A stretch of DNA of 64,000 nt, from the NCBI RefSeq assembly GCF_003129465.1, contig NZ_QFFF01000001.1, forward strand, positions 434,001 through 498,000, written 5' to 3'. This DNA is from Sphingosinicella humi. Lineage in GTDB: Bacteria; Pseudomonadota; Alphaproteobacteria; Sphingomonadales; Sphingomonadaceae. Below the pieces are notes generated by a model. It did no database searches. It saw only the letters and a program-made list of their open reading frames with translations, and was not told the origin of the DNA. Every line of letters begins with the position of its first letter. The first letter of the stretch is position 1. The position numbers and the translations under genes were made by a program. This document shows, one piece after another, positions 7,575-49,611 of this stretch.

Positions 7575-7702
7575 AGCAGGCGGGGCAACCGCCGATGACC
7601 TCCGCCGTTAATAGGAGCGAGTCCTTGATGCCCGGACACCCAGCCCCGACATTAAGGATAAGTTGCCCGTGAAAACCCATTGCGGGCCAAAGGAGTAAGT
7701 TA

Positions 7703-10024
7703 ATGCCGTCATTCGCCCGCGAATTGGAACAGACGCTCCACACGGCGCTCGCCGAAGCGAGCGGCCGCAGGCACGAATATGCGACCTTGGAGCATCTTCT
7801 GCTCGCCCTTATCGAGGACGCCCACGCCTCCAAGGTCATGTCGGCTTGCGGCGTCGACCTCAAGGAACTGCGCGAAGGCGTCCGCCTCTATCTCGACAAT
7901 GAGTTGGAGGCGCTGAAGGTCGATGGGGAAACCGACCCCTCCCCCACCAGCGGCTTCCAACGCGTCGTCCAGCGCGCCATCCTCCACGTCCAGTCCTCGG
8001 GCCGGGACGAGGTGACCGGCGCCAATGTCCTCGTCGCGCTTTTCTCCGAGCGCGAGAGCTATGCCGTCTATTTCCTGCAGCAGCAGGACATGAGCCGCCT
8101 CGACGCGGTGAGCTACATTAGCCACGGCGTCGGCAAGGGCGAAACCGCGGCCGAACCGGTCGAGGTGAAGGGCACCGAGGAAGAGAAGAAGGACGAGAGC
8201 GGCAAGAAGAAGGGCGAGAGCGCCCTCAAGCAGTTCACCGTCAACCTCAACGAAAAAGCCCAGGCCGGCCGGGTGGACCCGCTGATCGGACGCGGGCCCG
8301 AGGTCGACCGCACCGTCCAGATCTTGTGCCGCCGCTCCAAGAACAACCCGCTCTACGTAGGCGATCCGGGCGTCGGCAAGACGGCGATCGCCGAGGGGCT
8401 GGCGCGCAAGATCGTCGAGGGCGACGTGCCCGACGTGCTGAAGGAAGCGACCATCTACGCCCTCGACATGGGCGCGTTGCTGGCAGGCACCCGCTATCGC
8501 GGCGATTTCGAGGAGCGGCTGAAGGCCGTGGTGAACGAGCTCGAGAAGCTGCCGCATGCGATCCTTTTCATCGACGAGATCCACACGGTGATCGGCGCCG
8601 GCGCCACATCGGGCGGCGCGATGGACGCGTCGAACCTGCTGAAGCCGGCGCTGTCGGGCGGCACGATCCGCTGCATCGGATCGACCACCTACAAGGAGTT
8701 TCGCAACCACTTCGAGAAGGACCGGGCGCTGCTCCGGCGCTTCCAGAAGATCGACGTCAACGAGCCGACGGTCGAGGACACCATCAAGATCCTCGCCGGC
8801 CTTCGTTCGGCGTTCGAGGAGCATCACAGCGTCAAATACACGTCCGACGCGATCAAGTCGGCCGTCGAGCTTTCGGCGCGCTACATCAACGACCGCAAGC
8901 TGCCCGACAAGGCGATCGATGTGATCGACGAGGTCGGCGCCATGCAGATGCTGGTGCCGCCGTCGCGCCGCAAGAAGACGATCACCACCAAGGAGATCGA
9001 GGCGGTCATCTCGACCATCGCCCGCATCCCGCCGAAGAGCGTGAGCACGGATGACAAGAAGGCGCTCGAGCATCTCGACCGCGACCTGAAGCGGGTCGTC
9101 TTCGGCCAGGACAAGGCGATCGAGGTGCTGTCCTCGGCGATCAAGCTGTCGCGCGCCGGCCTTCGCGATCCCGACAAGCCGATCGGCAACTATCTCTTCT
9201 CCGGCCCCACCGGCGTCGGCAAGACCGAGGTGGCGCGCCAGCTCGCCTCGATCATGGGCATCCCGCTCCAGCGTTTCGACATGTCCGAATATATGGAGCG
9301 GCATTCGGTCAGCCGCCTGATCGGCGCGCCTCCGGGCTATGTCGGATACGACCAGGGCGGCCTCTTGACCGATGCCGTCGACCAGCACCCGCACAGTGTG
9401 CTGCTGCTCGACGAGATCGAGAAGGCGCATCCGGACCTGTTCAACATCCTCCTGCAGGTGATGGACAACGGCAAATTGACCGACCATCACGGCAAGACGG
9501 TCGATTTCCGCAACGTCATCCTCATCATGACGACCAATGCGGGCGCGTCCGACATGGCGAAGGAGTCGATCGGCTTCGGCCAGATCACCCGCGAGGATGT
9601 GCAGGAGGAGGCGGTGAAGAAGCTCTTCACCCCCGAGTTCCGCAACCGTCTCGATGCGATCGTGCCGTTCGGCTATCTGCCGCCGGAGGTGGTCGCCCGG
9701 GTGGTGGACAAGTTCATCCTCCAGATGGAACTGCAGCTGGCGGACCGCAACGTCCACATCAGCCTCGACGACAACGCCAAGAAGTGGCTCATCGACCGCG
9801 GTTACGATCGCCTCTACGGCGCTCGGCCCATGGGCCGGCTGATGCAGGAGAAGATCAAGCAGCCGCTCGCCGAGGAGTTGCTGTTCGGCAAGCTCCTCAA
9901 CGGCGGCGAGGTCAAGGTCACCATCAAGGACAACGCTCCCGCGTTCGAGATCGTCCCCGCCGCTCCCAAAGCGCGCAAGAAGCGGGGCGGCGGCAAGAAG
10001 AAAGCCGAAGAGCAGAAGGCCTGA
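7703..10024 (+). CDS. clpA: ATP-dependent Clp protease ATP-binding subunit ClpA
   Basis: A 773-aa AAA+ unfoldase that feeds substrates to ClpP. The N-domain covers about residues 1-150, with a charged KKDESGKKKGES linker. The first AAA domain has Walker A GDPGVGKT near residue 220 and Walker B ILFIDEIH; the second has GPTGVGKT near residue 503 and VLLLDEIEKAH. The ClpP-docking loop is visible as KESIGFGQ. AGGAG precedes the ATG. The tail is Lys-rich. The adaptor gene clpS, often directly upstream in proteobacteria, is absent here: DUF1192 ends 128 bases before. Confidence 0.97.
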   Translation: MPSFARELEQTLHTALAEASGRRHEYATLEHLLLALIEDAHASKVMSACGVDLKELREGVRLYLDNELEALKVDGETDPSPTSGFQRVVQRAILHVQSSGRDEVTGANVLVALFSERESYAVYFLQQQDMSRLDAVSYISHGVGKGETAAEPVEVKGTEEEKKDESGKKKGESALKQFTVNLNEKAQAGRVDPLIGRGPEVDRTVQILCRRSKNNPLYVGDPGVGKTAIAEGLARKIVEGDVPDVLKEATIYALDMGALLAGTRYRGDFEERLKAVVNELEKLPHAILFIDEIHTVIGAGATSGGAMDASNLLKPALSGGTIRCIGSTTYKEFRNHFEKDRALLRRFQKIDVNEPTVEDTIKILAGLRSAFEEHHSVKYTSDAIKSAVELSARYINDRKLPDKAIDVIDEVGAMQMLVPPSRRKKTITTKEIEAVISTIARIPPKSVSTDDKKALEHLDRDLKRVVFGQDKAIEVLSSAIKLSRAGLRDPDKPIGNYLFSGPTGVGKTEVARQLASIMGIPLQRFDMSEYMERHSVSRLIGAPPGYVGYDQGGLLTDAVDQHPHSVLLLDEIEKAHPDLFNILLQVMDNGKLTDHHGKTVDFRNVILIMTTNAGASDMAKESIGFGQITREDVQEEAVKKLFTPEFRNRLDAIVPFGYLPPEVVARVVDKFILQMELQLADRNVHISLDDNAKKWLIDRGYDRLYGARPMGRLMQEKIKQPLAEELLFGKLLNGGEVKVTIKDNAPAFEIVPAAPKARKKRGGGKKKAEEQKA

Positions 10025-10025
10025 T

Positions 10026-10096
10026 CGTCAACGGCGCGAAGCAATCCAGCATCAATCAAGCTGGATTGCTTCGTCGCTCCGTTCCTCGCGATGACG
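10026..10096. repeat. Palindromic repeat, family A copy 1
   Basis: A 71-bp unit bounded by CGTCA and TGACG. Its core arms CGAAGCAATCCAGC and GCTGGATTGCTTCG form a long hairpin directly after clpA. A second copy with the same arms lies at 43103-43180. It may serve as a transcript end or stability element. Confidence 0.75.
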
Positions 10097-10197
10097 AGTT
10101 TCCTTGGGCATAGGACCGTTCGCCCCCCTGTGACAAGCGGACTCCCGCTCCGCCGCGACTGAGGCTATTGTGGCGCGCTCATTGAAGGAGCATCGCC

Positions 10198-10839
10198 ATG
10201 CCGAGCCTCACCTTCTACACCAATCCCCGATCGCGCGGGCGGGTCGCTCGCTGGATGCTCGAGGAAGTGGGCGAGCCCTACGAAACCGTCATTCTCGATT
10301 ATGGAACGACGATGAAGGGCGCCGAGTATCTCGCGATCAACCCCATGGGGAAGGTGCCCGCGATCAAGCATGGCGACACGGTCGTCACCGAGGCGGCCGC
10401 CATTTGCGCCTATCTCGCCGACGCCTTTCCGGAGAAGGGCCTCGCGCCGCCACTCGGCGATCCGCGCCGGGGGACTTACTTCCGCTGGTTGTTCTTCGCG
10501 GCCGGCTGCGTCGAGGCGGCGGTGACCAGCAAGGCGCTCGGCCTCCTTGCCCCCGCCGACAAGAAGCAGATGGTGGGCTATGGCAGCTATGAGGAGACGA
10601 TCGACGCGCTGGAACGCGCCGTCTCCGCCGGGCCCTATATCTGCGGCGATCAGTTCACCGCCGCCGACGTCTATGTAGGTTCGCAGATCGGCTGGGGCAT
10701 GATGTTCGGCACGATCGACAAGCGACCGCTGTTCGAAGATTATGTGGCGCGTCTCCAGTTCCGCCCGGCCGCGCAGCGTGCGAACCAGCTCGACGATGAG
10801 GCGACGCCCAAGCCGGAGCCCCAACCCCAACCCGCCTAA
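10198..10839 (+). CDS. Glutathione S-transferase family protein
   Basis: A 213-aa cytosolic GST. The N-terminal thioredoxin-like domain starts MPSLTFYTNPRSRGRVARWML, where the residues after the first strand form the glutathione site. It includes the cis-proline region NPMGKVPAIKHGD and the EAAAICAYLAD motif. The C-terminal helical domain includes GDQFTAADVYVGSQIGWG. Substrate unknown; these enzymes usually conjugate electrophiles. The 3' end is rich in Pro codons (PKPEPQPQPA). It is eleven bases before the dienelactone hydrolase gene, so probably co-transcribed. Confidence 0.9.
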   Translation: MPSLTFYTNPRSRGRVARWMLEEVGEPYETVILDYGTTMKGAEYLAINPMGKVPAIKHGDTVVTEAAAICAYLADAFPEKGLAPPLGDPRRGTYFRWLFFAAGCVEAAVTSKALGLLAPADKKQMVGYGSYEETIDALERAVSAGPYICGDQFTAADVYVGSQIGWGMMFGTIDKRPLFEDYVARLQFRPAAQRANQLDDEATPKPEPQPQPA

Positions 10840-35712: not shown

Positions 35713-36120
35713 ATGAAGCGTCGCATCCCGAAGCGTCTGACTGACCGTGCCCGCGATCTTCGCAACAACGCGACGCCGCAAGAGCGCATCCTCTGGCGCC
35801 TGCTCTCGCGTTATCGCCCAAAATTCACTCGCCAGCTTTCGATACCACCCTTTGTTGCCGACCTCGCCTGTCGCGAGGCCCGGTTGGTCGTCGAGATCGA
35901 TGGCAGCCAGCATATGGATTCCAAGGCCGACGAAGGCCGCACCGTCCGCCTGCAAAGCGAGGGTTGGACCGTCATTCGCTTCTGGAACAGCGATGTGAAT
36001 GAAAACCCTGAAGGCGTCGCCGAAGCGATCCTGTCCAAAGCCGCCGAGTGCCTCGGCGGCACCCACCCCCGACCCCTCCCTTCCAGGGAGGGGAGAAAGA
36101 GGCGCAGGCGCTTTGAATGA
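35713..36120 (+). CDS. DUF559 (endonuclease-like) protein
   Basis: A 135-aa protein of the DUF559 family, a Vsr-like nuclease fold. ATPQERILWRLLSRYRPKFTRQ, FVADLACREARLVVEIDGSQH (the acidic D...EIDG motif) and WTVIRFWNSDVNENPEGVAEAI are the typical blocks. The C-terminal GGTHPRPLPSREGRKRRRRF is encoded by the right inverted repeat, so the unit and the gene share an end. It may nick repeat hairpins. Function unproven. Confidence 0.85.
   Translation: MKRRIPKRLTDRARDLRNNATPQERILWRLLSRYRPKFTRQLSIPPFVADLACREARLVVEIDGSQHMDSKADEGRTVRLQSEGWTVIRFWNSDVNENPEGVAEAILSKAAECLGGTHPRPLPSREGRKRRRRFE
36061..36095. repeat. Right 35-bp inverted repeat of the DUF559 unit
   Basis: An exact inverse of 35645-35679, located inside the 3' end of the DUF559 reading frame. 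The two copies delimit a 451-bp unit. Confidence 0.85.
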
Positions 36121-43204: not shown

Positions 43205-43603
43205 ATGGCCTATTGGCTGATGAAGTCCGAGCCCGACACCTATAGCTGGGACGATCTCGTCCGCGATCGAAGCACCGACTGGGACGGCGTCCGCAACAAC
43301 GCCGCCCGCCTGCACCTCCGCGCGATGAAGCCCGGCGACGAGGCCTTCTTCTACCATAGCGGCGCCGAGCGGGCGGTGGTCGGCATGATGCGCATCACCG
43401 GCGAGGGCAAGCCCGACGGCGAGGACGGCAGCTGGGTCAAGGTCCCCGTCGAGCCGGTGCGGGCGCTGGAACGGCCGGTGACGCTGCAGGCGATCAAGGC
43501 CGAACCCAGCCTGGCGCAGATGGAACTGGTCCGGCAGTCGCGTCTCTCGGTCTCTCCCGTCCGTGGCGATGAGTGGGCGCTGGTGCTGAAGATGGCGGGC
43601 TGA
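43205..43603 (+). CDS. EVE domain-containing protein
   Basis: A 132-aa protein that is a single EVE domain (PUA/YTH-like): MAYWLMKSEPDTYSWDDLVRD, WDGVRNNAARLHLRAMKPGDEAFFYHSG, GMMRITGEG. EVE domains bind modified nucleic-acid bases, and fused versions occur in methyl-dependent restriction. This is the short stand-alone form widespread in bacteria, thus not by itself a defence gene, although it neighbours the methyltransferase island. Confidence 0.9.
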   Translation: MAYWLMKSEPDTYSWDDLVRDRSTDWDGVRNNAARLHLRAMKPGDEAFFYHSGAERAVVGMMRITGEGKPDGEDGSWVKVPVEPVRALERPVTLQAIKAEPSLAQMELVRQSRLSVSPVRGDEWALVLKMAG

Positions 43604-44051
43604 GCCGCCCGGGCGACCCCACCGCCCCCCCCCGCGAATGGTCCCGATGTTCGCAGTGGCCATGGGGGCGGAGGGAGCGACTTCCCAACCGGCCTGCCCT
43701 GAGCCACGATGCGGATGCGAAGCCTCCCGAGAAGCGGGCGGGAGGGCACCTTTCTTCTGCATGAGCTGTCTCCCGGCTTTTGGAACAAAAGGCGAATCGA
43801 CCAGGATATGCCTCAAGAGAGGGCCTGTAGGAAATAGTTTGTTCTTGGTTGGTTCTGCCTGCCGTGCTAATCGGCGTCGGCAGGTCACGTCGTGACGATG
43901 GGCGCATGGGTCATGCATCCCAAACTGCCGGCCTTGGTGAGCGGAGCTGCTAAGTGGCTCGTCTGATTCAGTATTTTCTGTGAACTCATTGATTCGAAAT
44001 AACTATTGCACCAGCTTATAAAAACTGCCACATTCCGACGAGGGAGCGATA
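43604..44051. other. Gene-free 448-bp spacer at island boundary
   Basis: No convincing gene, tRNA or repeat. The first half is GC-rich with a run of C (CCGCCCCCCCCCGCG near 43622). The last 100 bases are AT-rich (ATTCAGTATTTTCTG, AACTATTGCACC, CTTATAAAAACTGCC) and probably hold the promoter of the methyltransferase gene. An 85-codon frame at 43638 has no visible family or ribosome site. Confidence 0.5.
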
Positions 44052-47000
44052 ATGACGGCAGCGCTGGTAACCGGTTGGCTGGAAGCCCTCGGTTACGAGG
44101 GAATTGGAGACGCGCTAGTCAGCGACGTCAACGAGATTGGGCGCCGACCTTATGCCTCTGAACTTTATGACTTACTCGACCCTGCGGGTGACTATCGCTT
44201 AGATGCGGTATTCTTGGTCGAAAACACGCCGACTATTTGTTTCATTGAGGGGGCACAGGTTCATGATCAAGCCCTGATCGACGCTTTGCGCCAGCGTCTG
44301 TGGAACCAGAATTTGGCTTCTGCGCTACTTGTTCTGCACTCGGGCGAGTTGTGCGCCTATTCCGTCCCGAAATGGAAAAACGCTCTTGCGACCGACAGAA
44401 TTGGGCGCGCCGAAGCTCGGCTCGACGGTCACTGGTCAGCAGGGGAAATACAGTCATCCGAAGTGCAGAGACGGCTTTCGGATTGGTTCGATCCAAACCG
44501 CCGTGTTGATCGTGATCTCCTACGCCAGCTCAGCATCGCCGTTACCCAACTGACGGGTGGGGCCACTCCACCCATCGAGCGCCAGCTCGAAGCGCAGATG
44601 CTCCTCGCACAGGTTCTGTTTGTTTCATACCTTGAACATCGTACGATCGTGGGTGACGATTACCGGGGAGAACACGATCTACGTCCGTTCCACGAACTCG
44701 TGAAAGCTCGTGACGGGGCGGCGCTCGACGCGCTCATCAAACAACTAAAGCACGACTTTAACGGCGACTTTCTGGAGCCGAGCGAGATAAGTTGGGCGCG
44801 TTTGGATGGAAGAGCTTTTGGCGTCGTCGACAGTCTTCTCTCGCGCATCAATCTGGAAACTGGGCAGCGCGACTTCTGGAATTACGATTTTAGTCAGATC
44901 CCGGTGGAACTCCTATCCGGTATTTACGAGACATTCCTTCAAGAAGAACGGAAGGTGGATGGAGCGTACTACACGCCGCGAATGCTCGCGGAATTGGCTG
45001 CTGAAGAGGCCTTTCGGGACATCGCCGACCCGTCCAATTTACGCATCTACGACGGGGCATGCGGCTCGGGAATCCTGCTTACTACCGCGTTTCGAAAGGT
45101 CGTCGCCTATCGCGAAGCTGCTCTGGATCGCGCGCTAGATATCAATGAGCGGATTGAGCTGCTGCAAGACACGATTTTCGGGGGGGATATCAATCACATC
45201 GCGTGCCGAGTGACGGCGTTCAGTCTTTATCTGTGCCTCCTAGAGCGATTGTCGCCACGAGACCTCGCTCGCCTCCAACGCGAGCATGATTGCAGACTAC
45301 CGAAGTTGATCGGATCCAACATCGCCGAGGGCACATCAGAGGGTGATTTCTTCTCACCGAAGAACACTTTCTCCTCTTCATCCTCCTTCGATGTAGTGAT
45401 CTCCAATCCACCTTGGCGCGAGTTGCGCGCAGACGAAGGTCAAACGGCAGTCGCTTGGGCCGCAAAGAATCGCATCCGCATGCCACACCGACAGTTCGCA
45501 GCAGCCTTTGCAGCGAAGGCGACCGAGGCAGCGCGCCCCGCCGGTCGGATTGTTCTGATCCTCCCGAGCTCGCTCATTACGGCCCCTACGAACGCTGACT
45601 TCCTCCGCCAATTCACCGTGCGCTTCTCGATCGAACGCATGATAAATCTCGCTGATTTCCGCCGCCTCCTTTTTGCTCAGGCGGAGCATGCTTGCACGAT
45701 AGTGCGAGCATCCAACCTCCCAGGTCTACGCGGCGAGCGGATTACTGGCTCATTTGAGTATTGGATGCCGAAGGTGGACATTAGCTTCGCCTTCAACCGC
45801 CTAACACTGCACGAATACGATACGCTCAGCCTTCCACGTAGCTGCCTTGTCGAAGACAACGCTGTGCTCCGGCGACGGTTCTGGGGCGGGCGGCGCGACG
45901 CCGGCCTTGTGCAACGCCTCGCGCAGTTGCCGCGCCTTGGCGATGCGATGCGAGACGGAGGCTGGATTGCCGCCAAGGGCTATCACATGCGGGACGGCAA
46001 TAAGACTGCCTCGCCCGAACCGCTGCTTCATCTCCGTTATCTCCCCACCAACGCACTCAACAGCCAGAGCCCGGTTGTCGATACGGCATTGCTGACCCAC
46101 TTGCCCGTGGAACGCGGTGTGGCAAGTCACGGGAATTTGGCCATGTACGAAGGGCCGCGCGTGCTGTGGCCCGACGGGACATCTCCCGAAATCGAAGTAC
46201 GAGCTGGTTTCTCTGACACGCCGTTCTGCTTCTCATCTGCGGTGGGCGGATTGCGCCTTCCAGAGGCCGAGCGCAGAACGGCGCGTCTACTAACTTGCTA
46301 TCTCCGATCGAGCTTGGCGAAGTACTGGCTAATTCTCACTGGCTATTCCGCTTCCGCGGAGCGAGCACGTGTGACGGTAAGTGAAATTCGCTCGCTTCCC
46401 TTCATCAGGCCGGAACAGCATCCTCGCGCAGAAGTGGCCGAGCAAGCTCTCACAGAGGCTAATACGCAGCTTGCGCGGTTCGAAAGACCGGGCGGGATGG
46501 TCTTCGCGCAAGGCGCATACGAATTTGCGCGCGACGGAATCGACGAGCTGATTTTCCGATATTTTGGCCTGAGCGAGCATGAGCAAATTCTGATCCGAGA
46601 TATGGTCGACCTGGTGGCCAAGAGTCTTCAGCCAACGAGCTATCCTGAGCTGCACACGCCATTGCAGGACCCCGTTCAGCGCGATGATGTTGCAGCGTAT
46701 TTAGCCCAACTTCAGGAGACTCTATGCCGTTGGTCGGAAAGTAGCGGTGGCGAGGGCGCAATAAGCGTCGCTCGAGTTGATCGTGCTGGTGACCGAACTC
46801 CCATCGACGTAGTGCATATCGCCTTAGGCAAGACAATAAGCGAAGTAATGCGTTCGCCCCCACAGGCTGCTACTGTCCGAGAGCTGCTGACTGCCATTGC
46901 TTCGCGGATTGAGAAGGGCTCGAGCATCGACTTCTTTTCGATGCCGAACTCAATCTTTGTCTGGGGTAATGACGTTTATCTGGTGAAACCCTCCCGCAAG

Positions 47001-47090
47001 CGCTTCTGGACGAAGAGCGCCGCCCTTCGTGATGCCGACGAGGTTGTGGAGCTTTTGGTTAGCGAACCCGCGGAGGCGGCGGTCGCTTGA
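44052..47090 (+). CDS. Large N6-adenine DNA methyltransferase, putative restriction/defence protein
   Basis: A 1012-aa protein of the COG1002-type N6-adenine methylases. GAYYTP at 304-309, the SAM motif DGACGSG at 334-340 and the catalytic NPPW at 452-455 place the methylase in the centre; the C-terminal third probably recognises DNA. The N-terminal 120 residues resemble a PD-(D/E)XK restriction domain (Asp51 in YRLDAVFLVEN, Glu66 in TPTICFIEGA) but the lysine after the glutamate is missing, so that domain is probably inactive. It overlaps the next gene at TTGA. GAGGGAG precedes the ATG. GC content is visibly lower than in neighbours. Confidence 0.88.
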   Translation: MTAALVTGWLEALGYEGIGDALVSDVNEIGRRPYASELYDLLDPAGDYRLDAVFLVENTPTICFIEGAQVHDQALIDALRQRLWNQNLASALLVLHSGELCAYSVPKWKNALATDRIGRAEARLDGHWSAGEIQSSEVQRRLSDWFDPNRRVDRDLLRQLSIAVTQLTGGATPPIERQLEAQMLLAQVLFVSYLEHRTIVGDDYRGEHDLRPFHELVKARDGAALDALIKQLKHDFNGDFLEPSEISWARLDGRAFGVVDSLLSRINLETGQRDFWNYDFSQIPVELLSGIYETFLQEERKVDGAYYTPRMLAELAAEEAFRDIADPSNLRIYDGACGSGILLTTAFRKVVAYREAALDRALDINERIELLQDTIFGGDINHIACRVTAFSLYLCLLERLSPRDLARLQREHDCRLPKLIGSNIAEGTSEGDFFSPKNTFSSSSSFDVVISNPPWRELRADEGQTAVAWAAKNRIRMPHRQFAAAFAAKATEAARPAGRIVLILPSSLITAPTNADFLRQFTVRFSIERMINLADFRRLLFAQAEHACTIVRASNLPGLRGERITGSFEYWMPKVDISFAFNRLTLHEYDTLSLPRSCLVEDNAVLRRRFWGGRRDAGLVQRLAQLPRLGDAMRDGGWIAAKGYHMRDGNKTASPEPLLHLRYLPTNALNSQSPVVDTALLTHLPVERGVASHGNLAMYEGPRVLWPDGTSPEIEVRAGFSDTPFCFSSAVGGLRLPEAERRTARLLTCYLRSSLAKYWLILTGYSASAERARVTVSEIRSLPFIRPEQHPRAEVAEQALTEANTQLARFERPGGMVFAQGAYEFARDGIDELIFRYFGLSEHEQILIRDMVDLVAKSLQPTSYPELHTPLQDPVQRDDVAAYLAQLQETLCRWSESSGGEGAISVARVDRAGDRTPIDVVHIALGKTISEVMRSPPQAATVRELLTAIASRIEKGSSIDFFSMPNSIFVWGNDVYLVKPSRKRFWTKSAALRDADEVVELLVSEPAEAAVA

Positions 47091-47758
47091 AGCGCATTAT
47101 CAACGCATCCGGCGCAGCGCCTACTCTCTTCCCCTCCGTCGATTTCGACGCATTCTTAGCTTATCTCCGCGCGGTGTGGGCCGAGATAAAGGCGCTTAGC
47201 CCAAAGTGGTGGACCGCCAAGAAAGAAACCGATCTCGTTGGTGGTTTCTATGTCATGCTAAACGACGATGAATCACAGCTTCGACATGGCGTTGGATTCG
47301 GACATTTTTTCTATGAACCGACAGAGGTTGAGATCAATCCGAAGACAAATATGCCAAAGCCGATTGGACGTACGGACATCCAGTTTGCGTATGCCGCTCA
47401 TATGGGGCCGCGATTGACGATTGAGTTCAAACGACTGAACAACAAGTCTCCTCTCCGGCAAAAATACTTCTCTCAGGGCGTTTCGCGCTTCGTCTCAGGT
47501 AAGTATGCCCCGTCGCATGACACCGCTCTCATGGTCGGGCTGGTGGAGGGATCGGCGACTAACGAAAAGGCAGGCTTGCTGAAGTATCTCAGGCTAGCGA
47601 GCACGAAAGCTTCCCTCGCCCTACAGCCGATCACTCATCCGGAGTACGGGGACCCATCCAAACATGGGCCTGCGGTCGATTTCGATACGTTGCACAAGAG
47701 GCCGACTAATTGCTCCTGTGAGGAAATCACGATCGGCCATATTCTTCTCGAGCGCTGA
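47087..47758 (+). CDS. PD-(D/E)XK-like putative nuclease coupled to the methyltransferase
   Basis: A 223-aa protein with no family I can name. A nuclease-like core is visible: Glu47 in KKETDLVGGFYVML, Asp97 in GRTDIQFAY, then Glu113 and Lys115 in RLTIEFKRL (D-x15-E-x-K), then a helix QKYFSQGVSRFVSGKY with Gln130 and a strand TALMVGLVEG. It starts at TTG inside the methylase stop (TTGA overlap), so both should be made together. I infer that it is the cutting subunit, or a modification-sensing effector, of a two-gene system. No other island gene follows. Confidence 0.7.
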   Translation: MKRIINASGAAPTLFPSVDFDAFLAYLRAVWAEIKALSPKWWTAKKETDLVGGFYVMLNDDESQLRHGVGFGHFFYEPTEVEINPKTNMPKPIGRTDIQFAYAAHMGPRLTIEFKRLNNKSPLRQKYFSQGVSRFVSGKYAPSHDTALMVGLVEGSATNEKAGLLKYLRLASTKASLALQPITHPEYGDPSKHGPAVDFDTLHKRPTNCSCEEITIGHILLER

Positions 47759-47782
47759 TTAGGAGTATCAGCCCTAATCCAA

Positions 47783-47805
47783 GAGGCGGCCAACTAGGCC
47801 GCCTC
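47783..47805. terminator. Hairpin overlapping the typA stop
   Basis: GAGGCGGCC and its exact complement flank a 5-base loop AACTA, which contains the reverse of the typA TAG. It lies between convergent genes. No T-run follows, so termination is plausible but weakly supported. Confidence 0.5.
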
Positions 47806-49611
47806 CGCCTTGCGGCTTTGCCGCTTGCGCTCGTGGGGATCCAAATACCGCTTCCGTATCCGGATCACCTTCGGCGTCACCTCCACCAGCTCGTCGTCCT
47901 GGATATACGCAATCGCCTGTTCCAAGGTCATCCGCCGCGGCGGGGTCAGGCGGATGCCCTCATCCTTGCCTGAGGCGCGGAAGTTGGTGAGCTGCTTGCT
48001 CTTGAGCGGGTTTACTTCCAGGTCCTGGGGCTTGGCGTTCTCGCCGATCACCATGCCTTCGTAGAGCTTCTCGCCCGGCGCGATGAAGAGGATGCCGCGC
48101 TCCTCCAGCGCGTTCAGCGCATAGGCGACGGCCTCGCCCTGCTCCATCGAGATGAGCACGCCGTTCTGGCGGCCCTGGATCGGGCCCTTGTAGGGGCCGT
48201 ATTTCTCGAACAGCCGGTTCATGATGCCGGTGCCGCGCGTGTCGCTGAGGAACTCGCCATGATAGCCGATGAGGCCGCGGCTGGGGGCGGAGAAGGTGAG
48301 GCGCGTCTTGCCGCCGCCCGAGGGACGCATGTCGGTCATCTCGGCCTTGCGCAGCGCCATCTTCTCGACGACCGTGCCGCTATGCTCGTCGTCGACGTCG
48401 ACGACGACGGTCTCATAGGGCTCCTCGCGGCCGTTCGGGCCGTCGCGGAAGAGGACGCGGGGGCGGCTGATCGAGAGCTCGAAGCCTTCGCGGCGCATCG
48501 TCTCGATGAGGACGCCCAATTGAAGCTCGCCGCGGCCGGCGACTTCGAACGCGTCCTTGTCCTGGCTCTCGGTGATGCGGATGGCGACATTGCCCTCGGC
48601 CTCGCGCTCCAGCCGGTCGCGGATGACGCGGCTCTGCACCTTGTCGCCGTCGCGGCCGGCATAGGGGCTGTCGTTGACCGCGAAGCTCATGGCGAGCGTC
48701 GGCGGATCGATCGGGCGGGCGGGAAGCGGCTCGGTGACCGTGGGCGCGGCCATGGTGTTGGAGACGGTCGCCTTGGTGAGGCCGGCGATGGCGACGATGT
48801 CGCCCGCCTGCGCGCTCTCGACCGGCACGCGCTCGAGGCCGCGGAAGGCGAAGACCTTGGTGGCGCGGCCTTCCTCGACGACCTTGCCGGAGACGTCGAG
48901 CGCCTTGATTGGCATGTTGACGTCGAGCCGGCCGCTTTCGATGCGGCCGGTGAGGATGCGGCCGAGGAAGGGATCGCGGTCGAGCAGGGTGGCGAGCATC
49001 TTGAACTCGCCCGCGGGATCGAGGCCCGGCGCCGGGACATGGTCGACGATCTTCTGGAAGAGCGGCGTCAGGTCGCCCGAGCGGACGTCATCGGTTTCGC
49101 CGGCATAGCCGTTGCGGCCCGAGGCGTAGAGGACCGGGAAATCGAGCTGCTCGTCATTGGCATCGAGGCTCAGGAACAGCTCGAACACCTCGTCCAGCAC
49201 CTCGGCCGGGCGGGCGTCGGGACGGTCGATCTTGTTGACGACAACGATGGGGCGAAGGCCGAGGCCGAGCGCCTTGCCGGTCACGAACTTGGTCTGCGGC
49301 ATCGGCCCCTCGGCCGAATCGACGAGCAGAATGACGCCGTCGACCATCGAGAGGATGCGCTCCACCTCGGCGCCGAAATCGGCGTGGCCGGGCGTGTCGA
49401 CGACATTGATGCGGGTGCCGTTCCACTCGACCGAGGTGCACTTGGCGAGGATGGTGATCCCTCGCTCCTTCTCCAGATCGTTCGAGTCCATGGCCCGCTC
49501 GTCCACGCGCTGGTTGTCGCGGAAGGTGCCGGACTGGCGGAACAACTGGTCGACAAGAGTCGTCTTGCCGTGATCGACGTGGGCGATGATCGCCACGTTG
49601 CGAAGGCTCAT
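47794..49611 (-). CDS. typA: Translational GTPase TypA/BipA
   Basis: A 605-aa ribosome-associated GTPase needed for stress and cold responses and large-subunit assembly. G1 [11 protein letters not shown]2 region RGITILAK, G3 DTPGHADFG and G4 NKIDRPDA are present, followed by beta-barrel and EF-G-like domains ([20 protein letters not shown]) and the C-terminal TypA-specific domain. It diverges from mgtE; the 180-base spacer holds both promoters. Confidence 0.97.

Follow-up and report, generated by a model that had tools for sequence, protein, structure and literature searches.

The window analysed here is a stretch of 64,000 nucleotides (nt) from Sphingosinicella humi (NZ_QFFF01000001.1, positions 434,001-498,000; the coordinates below are window positions). 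Within it lie two consecutive genes, one for a large DNA methylase (M) and one for a small predicted nuclease (S), which we examine as a candidate restriction-modification pair (Table 1). As proposed in an initial annotation of the window, both reading frames are open and are coupled at a TTGA in which the stop of M and the start of S overlap by four nucleotides. Pfam bears out the flanking genes, an EVE-domain gene upstream and typA/bipA downstream.

Table 1. Features of the M-S locus, in window coordinates
Feature	Position	Strand	Description
M	44052-47090	+	N6-adenine DNA methylase, 1012 amino acids, ATG start; type IIG-like over its full length; open reading frame
S	47087-47758	+	Predicted PD-(D/E)XK nuclease, 223 amino acids, TTG start; open reading frame
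TTGA overlap, M stop / S start	47087-47090	+	4 nt, read from the open reading frames
M residues 1-155	44052-44516	+	Alpha/beta N-terminal domain with D51-x14-E66 hairpin (AlphaFold), without conserved catalytic triad
M residues 334-340, motif DGACGSG	45051-45071	+	S-adenosylmethionine (SAM) motif; D334, A336, C337, G338, S339 and G340 identical in 83/83
M residues 452-455, motif NPPW	45405-45416	+	Catalytic motif; identical in 83/83 aligned Ms
M residues 601-800	45852-46451	+	Presumed target-recognition region, placed by analogy with gamma-class methylases
S E47	47225-47227	+	Predicted active site; 90/90 aligned S proteins
S D97	47375-47377	+	Predicted active site; 90/90 aligned S proteins
S E113-x-K115	47423-47431	+	Predicted active site; 90/90 aligned S proteins
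gagggag	44040-44046	+	Possible ribosome-binding site, read from the sequence; precedes the ATG at 44052
EVE-domain gene	43205-43603	+	Left flank of the insertion, outside the system; Pfam EVE, E 6.5e-45
typA/bipA	47794-49611	-	Right flank, outside the system; Pfam BipA_C, E 2.4e-48

Judged by its motifs, M is a gamma-class N6-adenine methylase. It matches the Pfam families N6_Mtase (E value 3.9e-14) and Eco57I (1.5e-12), and the SAM and NPPW motifs that had been assigned to it sit at the positions given, with NPPW and six residues of the SAM motif invariant. Each of the 83 aligned Ms carries both motifs of a gamma-class amino-methylase. The PADLOC type IIG model PDLC03623 matches M over its full length (residues 6-1001; 699 bits, 2.5e-210) and PDLC03603 matches it partly (104 bits). 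The methylase core also resembles that of BrxX/PglX (BrxX chain, E 8.4e-6), the PglX matches being partial and covering approximately residues 300-415.

The initial annotation further described a dead nuclease block, marked by D51 and E66, at the N-terminus of M. Both residues exist in the window's M, but D51 recurs in 10 and E66 in 20 of the 83 aligned Ms, and the combination of an acidic residue 66 with K68 (the D51/acidic 66/K68 triad) occurs in none, so that the nuclease domain which a type IIG enzyme carries in the same chain is not found. The looser pattern D-x10..18-[DE]xK appears in the first 135 amino acids of 14 of the 83 Ms, at no constant position. An AlphaFold model of residues 1-291 (predicted local distance difference test, pLDDT, 92.5) contains a hairpin at residues 52-66 followed by a helix and strands. 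A fold search of the PDB with this model gave no significant match (RecU ranked 19th, E 3.5), hhalign against the MmeI-type nuclease domain gave a non-significant match confined to the helical stretch, and a profile search with the N-terminus returned nothing significant. Because the two residues are not conserved and the fold and profile matches are non-significant, we abandoned the dead nuclease domain as a description of this region. PMC4389544 reports a PD-x14-ExK spacing for type IIG N-termini, which equals the D51-x14-E66 spacing in the window's M. We conjecture that the region may be a decayed nuclease. The annotated M of locus L155 (739 amino acids) starts after this domain.

In S, the residues E47, D97 and E113-x-K115 had been read as a set in PD-(D/E)XK order, and here the earlier reading gains support. 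None of the four varies among the 90 aligned S proteins, most of which are only 20-30% identical to the S of the window, and it is mainly this invariance that makes the catalytic case for S. AlphaFold gives a confident model (pLDDT 90.2; predicted template-modelling (TM) score 0.87) that places E47 on a helix. A series of strands comes next, one of them bearing D97 close to its beginning and the following one E113 and K115, and a helix and a strand complete the order. The order of elements in this model is that expected for PD-(D/E)XK. No accepted match to S was found in Pfam, NCBIfam, PADLOC or PHROGs, and individual Pfam scans of 82 S proteins yielded one weak match to PDDEXK_9 (E 0.054) and six weak matches to unrelated families. 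Other identities for S were considered and set aside. A duplicated M N-terminus is not supported, since a profile comparison of the two detected no significant similarity; the name Fis family regulator, which PGAP gives to some S proteins, has no corresponding Pfam match at E 0.1 among the 82 members; and a match of the S profile to protein A chains among PDB sequences (E 4.7e-6) was taken as chance because no passing stretch was reported.

M and S occur together regardless of which of the two is used for the search. A search with the M pattern gave 83 loci (3 from a viral collection and the best 80 of 543 genome relatives), and S lies directly downstream of M in 81 of them, the other two stopping at contig ends. 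Among these 81 loci with readable downstream sequence no M lacks S, and no locus examined combines M with a broken S. Searching with S, we found it in 8 of 385 genomes of the class and 7 of 398 of the phylum, or about 2% of the genomes sampled; a relative of M lies upstream in all 12 distinct loci fetched (the window's own excluded), split into two reading frames in two of them. PDLC03603 matched seven of the 398 phylum genomes, the same seven that contain S. The context in both directions thus upholds the proposal that the methylase and its small nuclease-like partner belong together as a conserved unit. Relatives of M are present in 61 plasmid records, with S downstream in the 15 that were opened, and seven distant plasmid Ms (approximately 23-28% identity) are each followed by a match to S (E 1.9e-14 to 8.3e-66). 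In these most distant S sets E47, E113 and K115 align in seven of seven and D97 in four; in the remaining three a D stands a few residues off, where the alignment is uncertain. Adjacent methylase and nuclease genes, the arrangement of a two-gene type II system, are thus found in 81/83, 12/12 and 7/7 loci of the three sets, and 56 of 89 pairs overlap by precisely 4 nt under the chosen start rule. Titles of records matched by M, many of which are metagenome bins, name Acidobacteria, Planctomycetes, Verrucomicrobia and cyanobacteria; phage records contained nothing that matched M. Within the best 80 of 543 relatives, those nearest to the window's pair come from Acidocella, Caulobacter, Rhizobium and a Verrucomicrobiaceae bin (57-64% identity). 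One distant pair resides on a Ti plasmid beside Dsr1-like and SIR2-family proteins (L150, pTi_CFBP2407, 7654-10826), and two plasmid copies lie near resistance genes (L003 and L005; sul2 and a class 1 integron).

The two genes also share their history. Across 83 pairs, distances in the M tree track those in the S tree with r 0.933 (the maximum of 1000 permutations being 0.14). Of 46 well-supported splits among the Ms, 37 reappear in the S phylogeny, and the M phylogeny in turn reproduces 20 of 25 strong splits of S. Upstream of M, one of four recurrent proteins is present in 46 of 73 loci: a MerR-like protein (18), a divergent WYL protein (13), a 158-amino-acid protein linked by profile to the MerR-like group (11) or a small helix-turn-helix (HTH)-like protein (4). 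Pfam support for these families comes from representatives, with the WYL matches above the curated cut-offs and those to MerR and HTH mostly below. None of the four is present at the window locus and its relatives L017-L019. In 48% of cases, according to PMC9122601, a WYL regulator of the BrxR family is located together with a known phage defence system. No third core gene recurs: the upstream neighbours belong to differing regulator families, and no downstream family is present in more than a few loci. A cysteine-rich protein of approximately 570 amino acids lies upstream of M in 10 of the 73 loci (L023, L026, L029, L039, L042, L043, L049, L057, L059 and L066), with a WYL regulator between it and M in nine; that of L039 weakly matches a transposase (phrog_1191, E 6.7e-5). 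A comparison of nine neighbour proteins with PADLOC gave matches to WYL, Dsr1, DrmMI/type IIG and PDC-S06; with so few proteins and no baseline, these are anecdotal.

In the S. humi chromosome the pair is accessory DNA inserted between the EVE-domain gene and typA, where the genus is variable, as indicated by the presence of S in 1 of 26 genomes of the genus and by the varying size of the gap. The lower-G+C island noted earlier is real: 1-kb windows over the pair have a G+C fraction of 0.55-0.59, against 0.62-0.72 for the remaining 1-kb windows of the 64 kb. The EVE-domain gene is present in 24 of the 26 genomes, and in 20 of the 26 it adjoins typA on one contig, with a gap of about ten bases to 13.3 kb. 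Because it adjoins typA also in relatives that lack the pair, we ruled it out as a component; it belongs to the chromosomal site. The contents of the gap (window 43604-47793; L105-L123) include a type ISP restriction protein (L108:355-3567, minus strand) and an HNH_2 protein (L114:1113-1883, minus strand). The 18 gap proteins scanned, out of 82 candidate reading frames, comprise these one type ISP and one HNH protein, the others being metabolic, transport, DNA ligase or unmatched, which does not support a defence island. The same genome has two more methylase loci (C1:49820-50596 and C1:2451481-2452413), one MmeI-like and the other matching N6_Mtase strongly, for which the type name hsdM is presumptive. 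The 135-amino-acid product of a reading frame at window 35713-36120 resembles a DUF559-type, very-short-patch-like endonuclease.

The adjacency of M and S, the invariance of the active sites in both, the 4-nt overlap, the agreement of the trees and the upstream regulators, together with the accessory distribution, lower G+C and occurrence on plasmids, argue that M and S probably form one two-gene restriction-modification system, as predicted from sequence and model. In such a system M would methylate adenine at the target site, as the conservation of its SAM and NPPW motifs suggests, and S, with its invariant E-D-ExK residues and model topology, would be the endonuclease, so that unmodified incoming DNA would be cut and host DNA protected. 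S may work with M as the trans nuclease subunit of a type IIG-like enzyme whose N-terminus has no conserved nuclease site; this is the likelier form of the system, and we give such dependence on M close to an even chance. That S reads the site by itself we consider doubtful. It is also possible, at somewhat less than an even chance, that the pairs represent a widespread uncatalogued class, in which a type IIG-like methylase without its own nuclease site is followed by a cutting subunit that acts only through M and that single-gene annotation overlooks.

Dependence on M is favoured by a gene order and adjacency that stayed the same in all loci seen, by the lack of any M without S where the sequence ran on, and by a set of 12 Pseudosulfitobacter plasmid records (L007:5932-7560 and 11 more; 100% identical over the region). 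On these plasmids the start of a MerR-like regulator continues in frame into M at approximately residue 525, and the SAM and NPPW motifs are gone; S remains open with its four residues kept. A restriction nuclease that needs no partner should kill a host without the methylase, unless the nuclease is silent or the host is protected by another methylase, and the intact S beside an M that has lost its catalytic half therefore points to a nuclease that needs M.

Several points weigh against these readings. The 12 identical records may be one clonal event in which S is unexpressed or another methylase protects, and the other split Ms with an intact S (L001, L005, L047, L055 and L091; L134 and L135) may be sequencing errors. 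The activity, the complex and the methylation site are predictions from sequence and model. Foldseek found nothing for S in the PDB at E 0.001 or better (best BstEII, E 0.088, TM 0.32), with RecE, a Cas4-like protein, EcoO109I and EcoRV in lower rows mixed with unrelated folds, and no significant match in BFVD (best E 0.0069), where several rows are named PD-(D/E)XK and others are unrelated. Finally, in type IIG enzymes that share a single recognition domain this domain tends to diversify, and systems with two separate site readers cannot easily diversify recognition. In M, residues 601-800 are nearly as conserved as the methylase core (median identity ratio 0.92; 444 pairs with core identity 0.6-0.97; the methylase set leaves out 7 of 89 loci with short M reading frames, and L020 is cut by its contig), as would fit separate site reading by S, whereas 19 MmeI-like control proteins (20 fetched, one left out for a short reading frame) have a ratio of 0.67 for the target-recognition domain over the methylase (58 pairs, which are not independent). 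The expected N-terminal ExK is clear by regular expression in 6 of these 19, and several may lack the nuclease. This argument is weak because residues 801-1012 vary more (ratio 0.74, near the control's 0.67, with values that do not fall into two clear groups) and the recognition part may lie there; hypervariability is thus not clearly absent from M.

An orthodox type II system, in which S is an autonomous endonuclease that recognises a site by itself and M methylates independently, the type IIG likeness being only history, would agree with the undiversified residues 601-800, with a best though non-significant PDB match to BstEII in a list that also includes EcoO109I and EcoRV, and with the size of S, which is that of small type II enzymes. 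We regard it as rather unlikely, given that M precedes S in every locus examined, that no methylase stands without S among the 81 readable loci, and that S persists intact on the plasmids where M lost its catalytic half. A module that does not restrict, in which M marks self as in bacteriophage exclusion (BREX) and S acts on RNA, branched DNA or a damaged site, is improbable: the methylase core does resemble BrxX/PglX, and WYL regulators are shared with BREX, but the PglX matches are partial and no third core gene recurs beside the pairs. Least of all do we expect the arrangement under which PADLOC files M, a type IIG enzyme of one gene, with M restricting alone and S an accessory or regulator. 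The full-length PADLOC match and the Fis name given by PGAP would suit this very improbable arrangement, in conflict with the missing nuclease triad in M, the four invariant catalytic-type residues in S and the separate regulator that is often already present.

M is like type IIG enzymes throughout, as its PADLOC matches indicate, and differs from them in having no conserved nuclease triad and in being followed by a second gene with invariant nuclease residues. With MmeI-type (type IIL) enzymes it shares the order of N-terminal domain, helical stretch, gamma-class methylase and C-terminal part, and it differs in its separate S, in residues 601-800 that are not hypervariable and in the non-significant match of its N-terminus. 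PMC4389544 proposes a split type IIG enzyme in Haloferax (HVO_A0006 with HVO_A0237), in which a 219-amino-acid PD-(D/E)XK protein acts in trans to a methylase, as predicted for S; its D-x14-E spacing is also that of D51 and E66 in M. The Haloferax fragment is an N-terminus detached from a type IIG enzyme, does not adjoin the methylase and has one relative in Halobacteria, whereas S forms a family of its own that adjoins M in every locus seen and has no detectable likeness to the M N-terminus; comparisons of S with the N-termini of M and of an MmeI-type enzyme, which did not extend to HVO_A0006 itself, were non-significant. NruI, an orthodox type II system, likewise has separate genes for a methylase and an endonuclease of approximately 220 amino acids, but according to PMC2890505 M.NruI has 267 amino acids, a DPPY motif and the opposite gene orientation, in contrast to the approximately 1000 amino acids, NPPW motif, fixed order and overlap of M and S. 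The likeness to BREX extends to the methylase core and to the WYL regulator in 13 of 73 loci; the M-S pairs differ in including a nuclease, and no brxA/B/C/Z/L recur within approximately 6 kb in the 73 loci, with families assigned for representatives only.

The initial annotation presented the pair as undescribed and outside the type IIG layout, which is partly borne out. We found no profile of this exact pair and no paper on it in the open-access literature, and S belongs to none of the four libraries searched; the second, nuclease-like gene does depart from a type IIG layout. M, however, is already in PADLOC as a full-length type IIG match, so that M-S is probably a mis-filed two-gene restriction-modification variant rather than an unknown kind. 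What is new here is the partner gene S and its tight and wide linkage to M.

In PADLOC these methylases count as complete type IIG enzymes, and none of the libraries searched has a family for S. If our reading is true, a nuclease family in about 2% of sampled genomes, spread by record title over several phyla, has been left without a name, and the rules by which such systems are annotated would need a second gene. M-S would then be a clean system in which to study the control of a trans nuclease subunit, with the 12 identical plasmid records as natural cases of a nuclease persisting without the methylase core.

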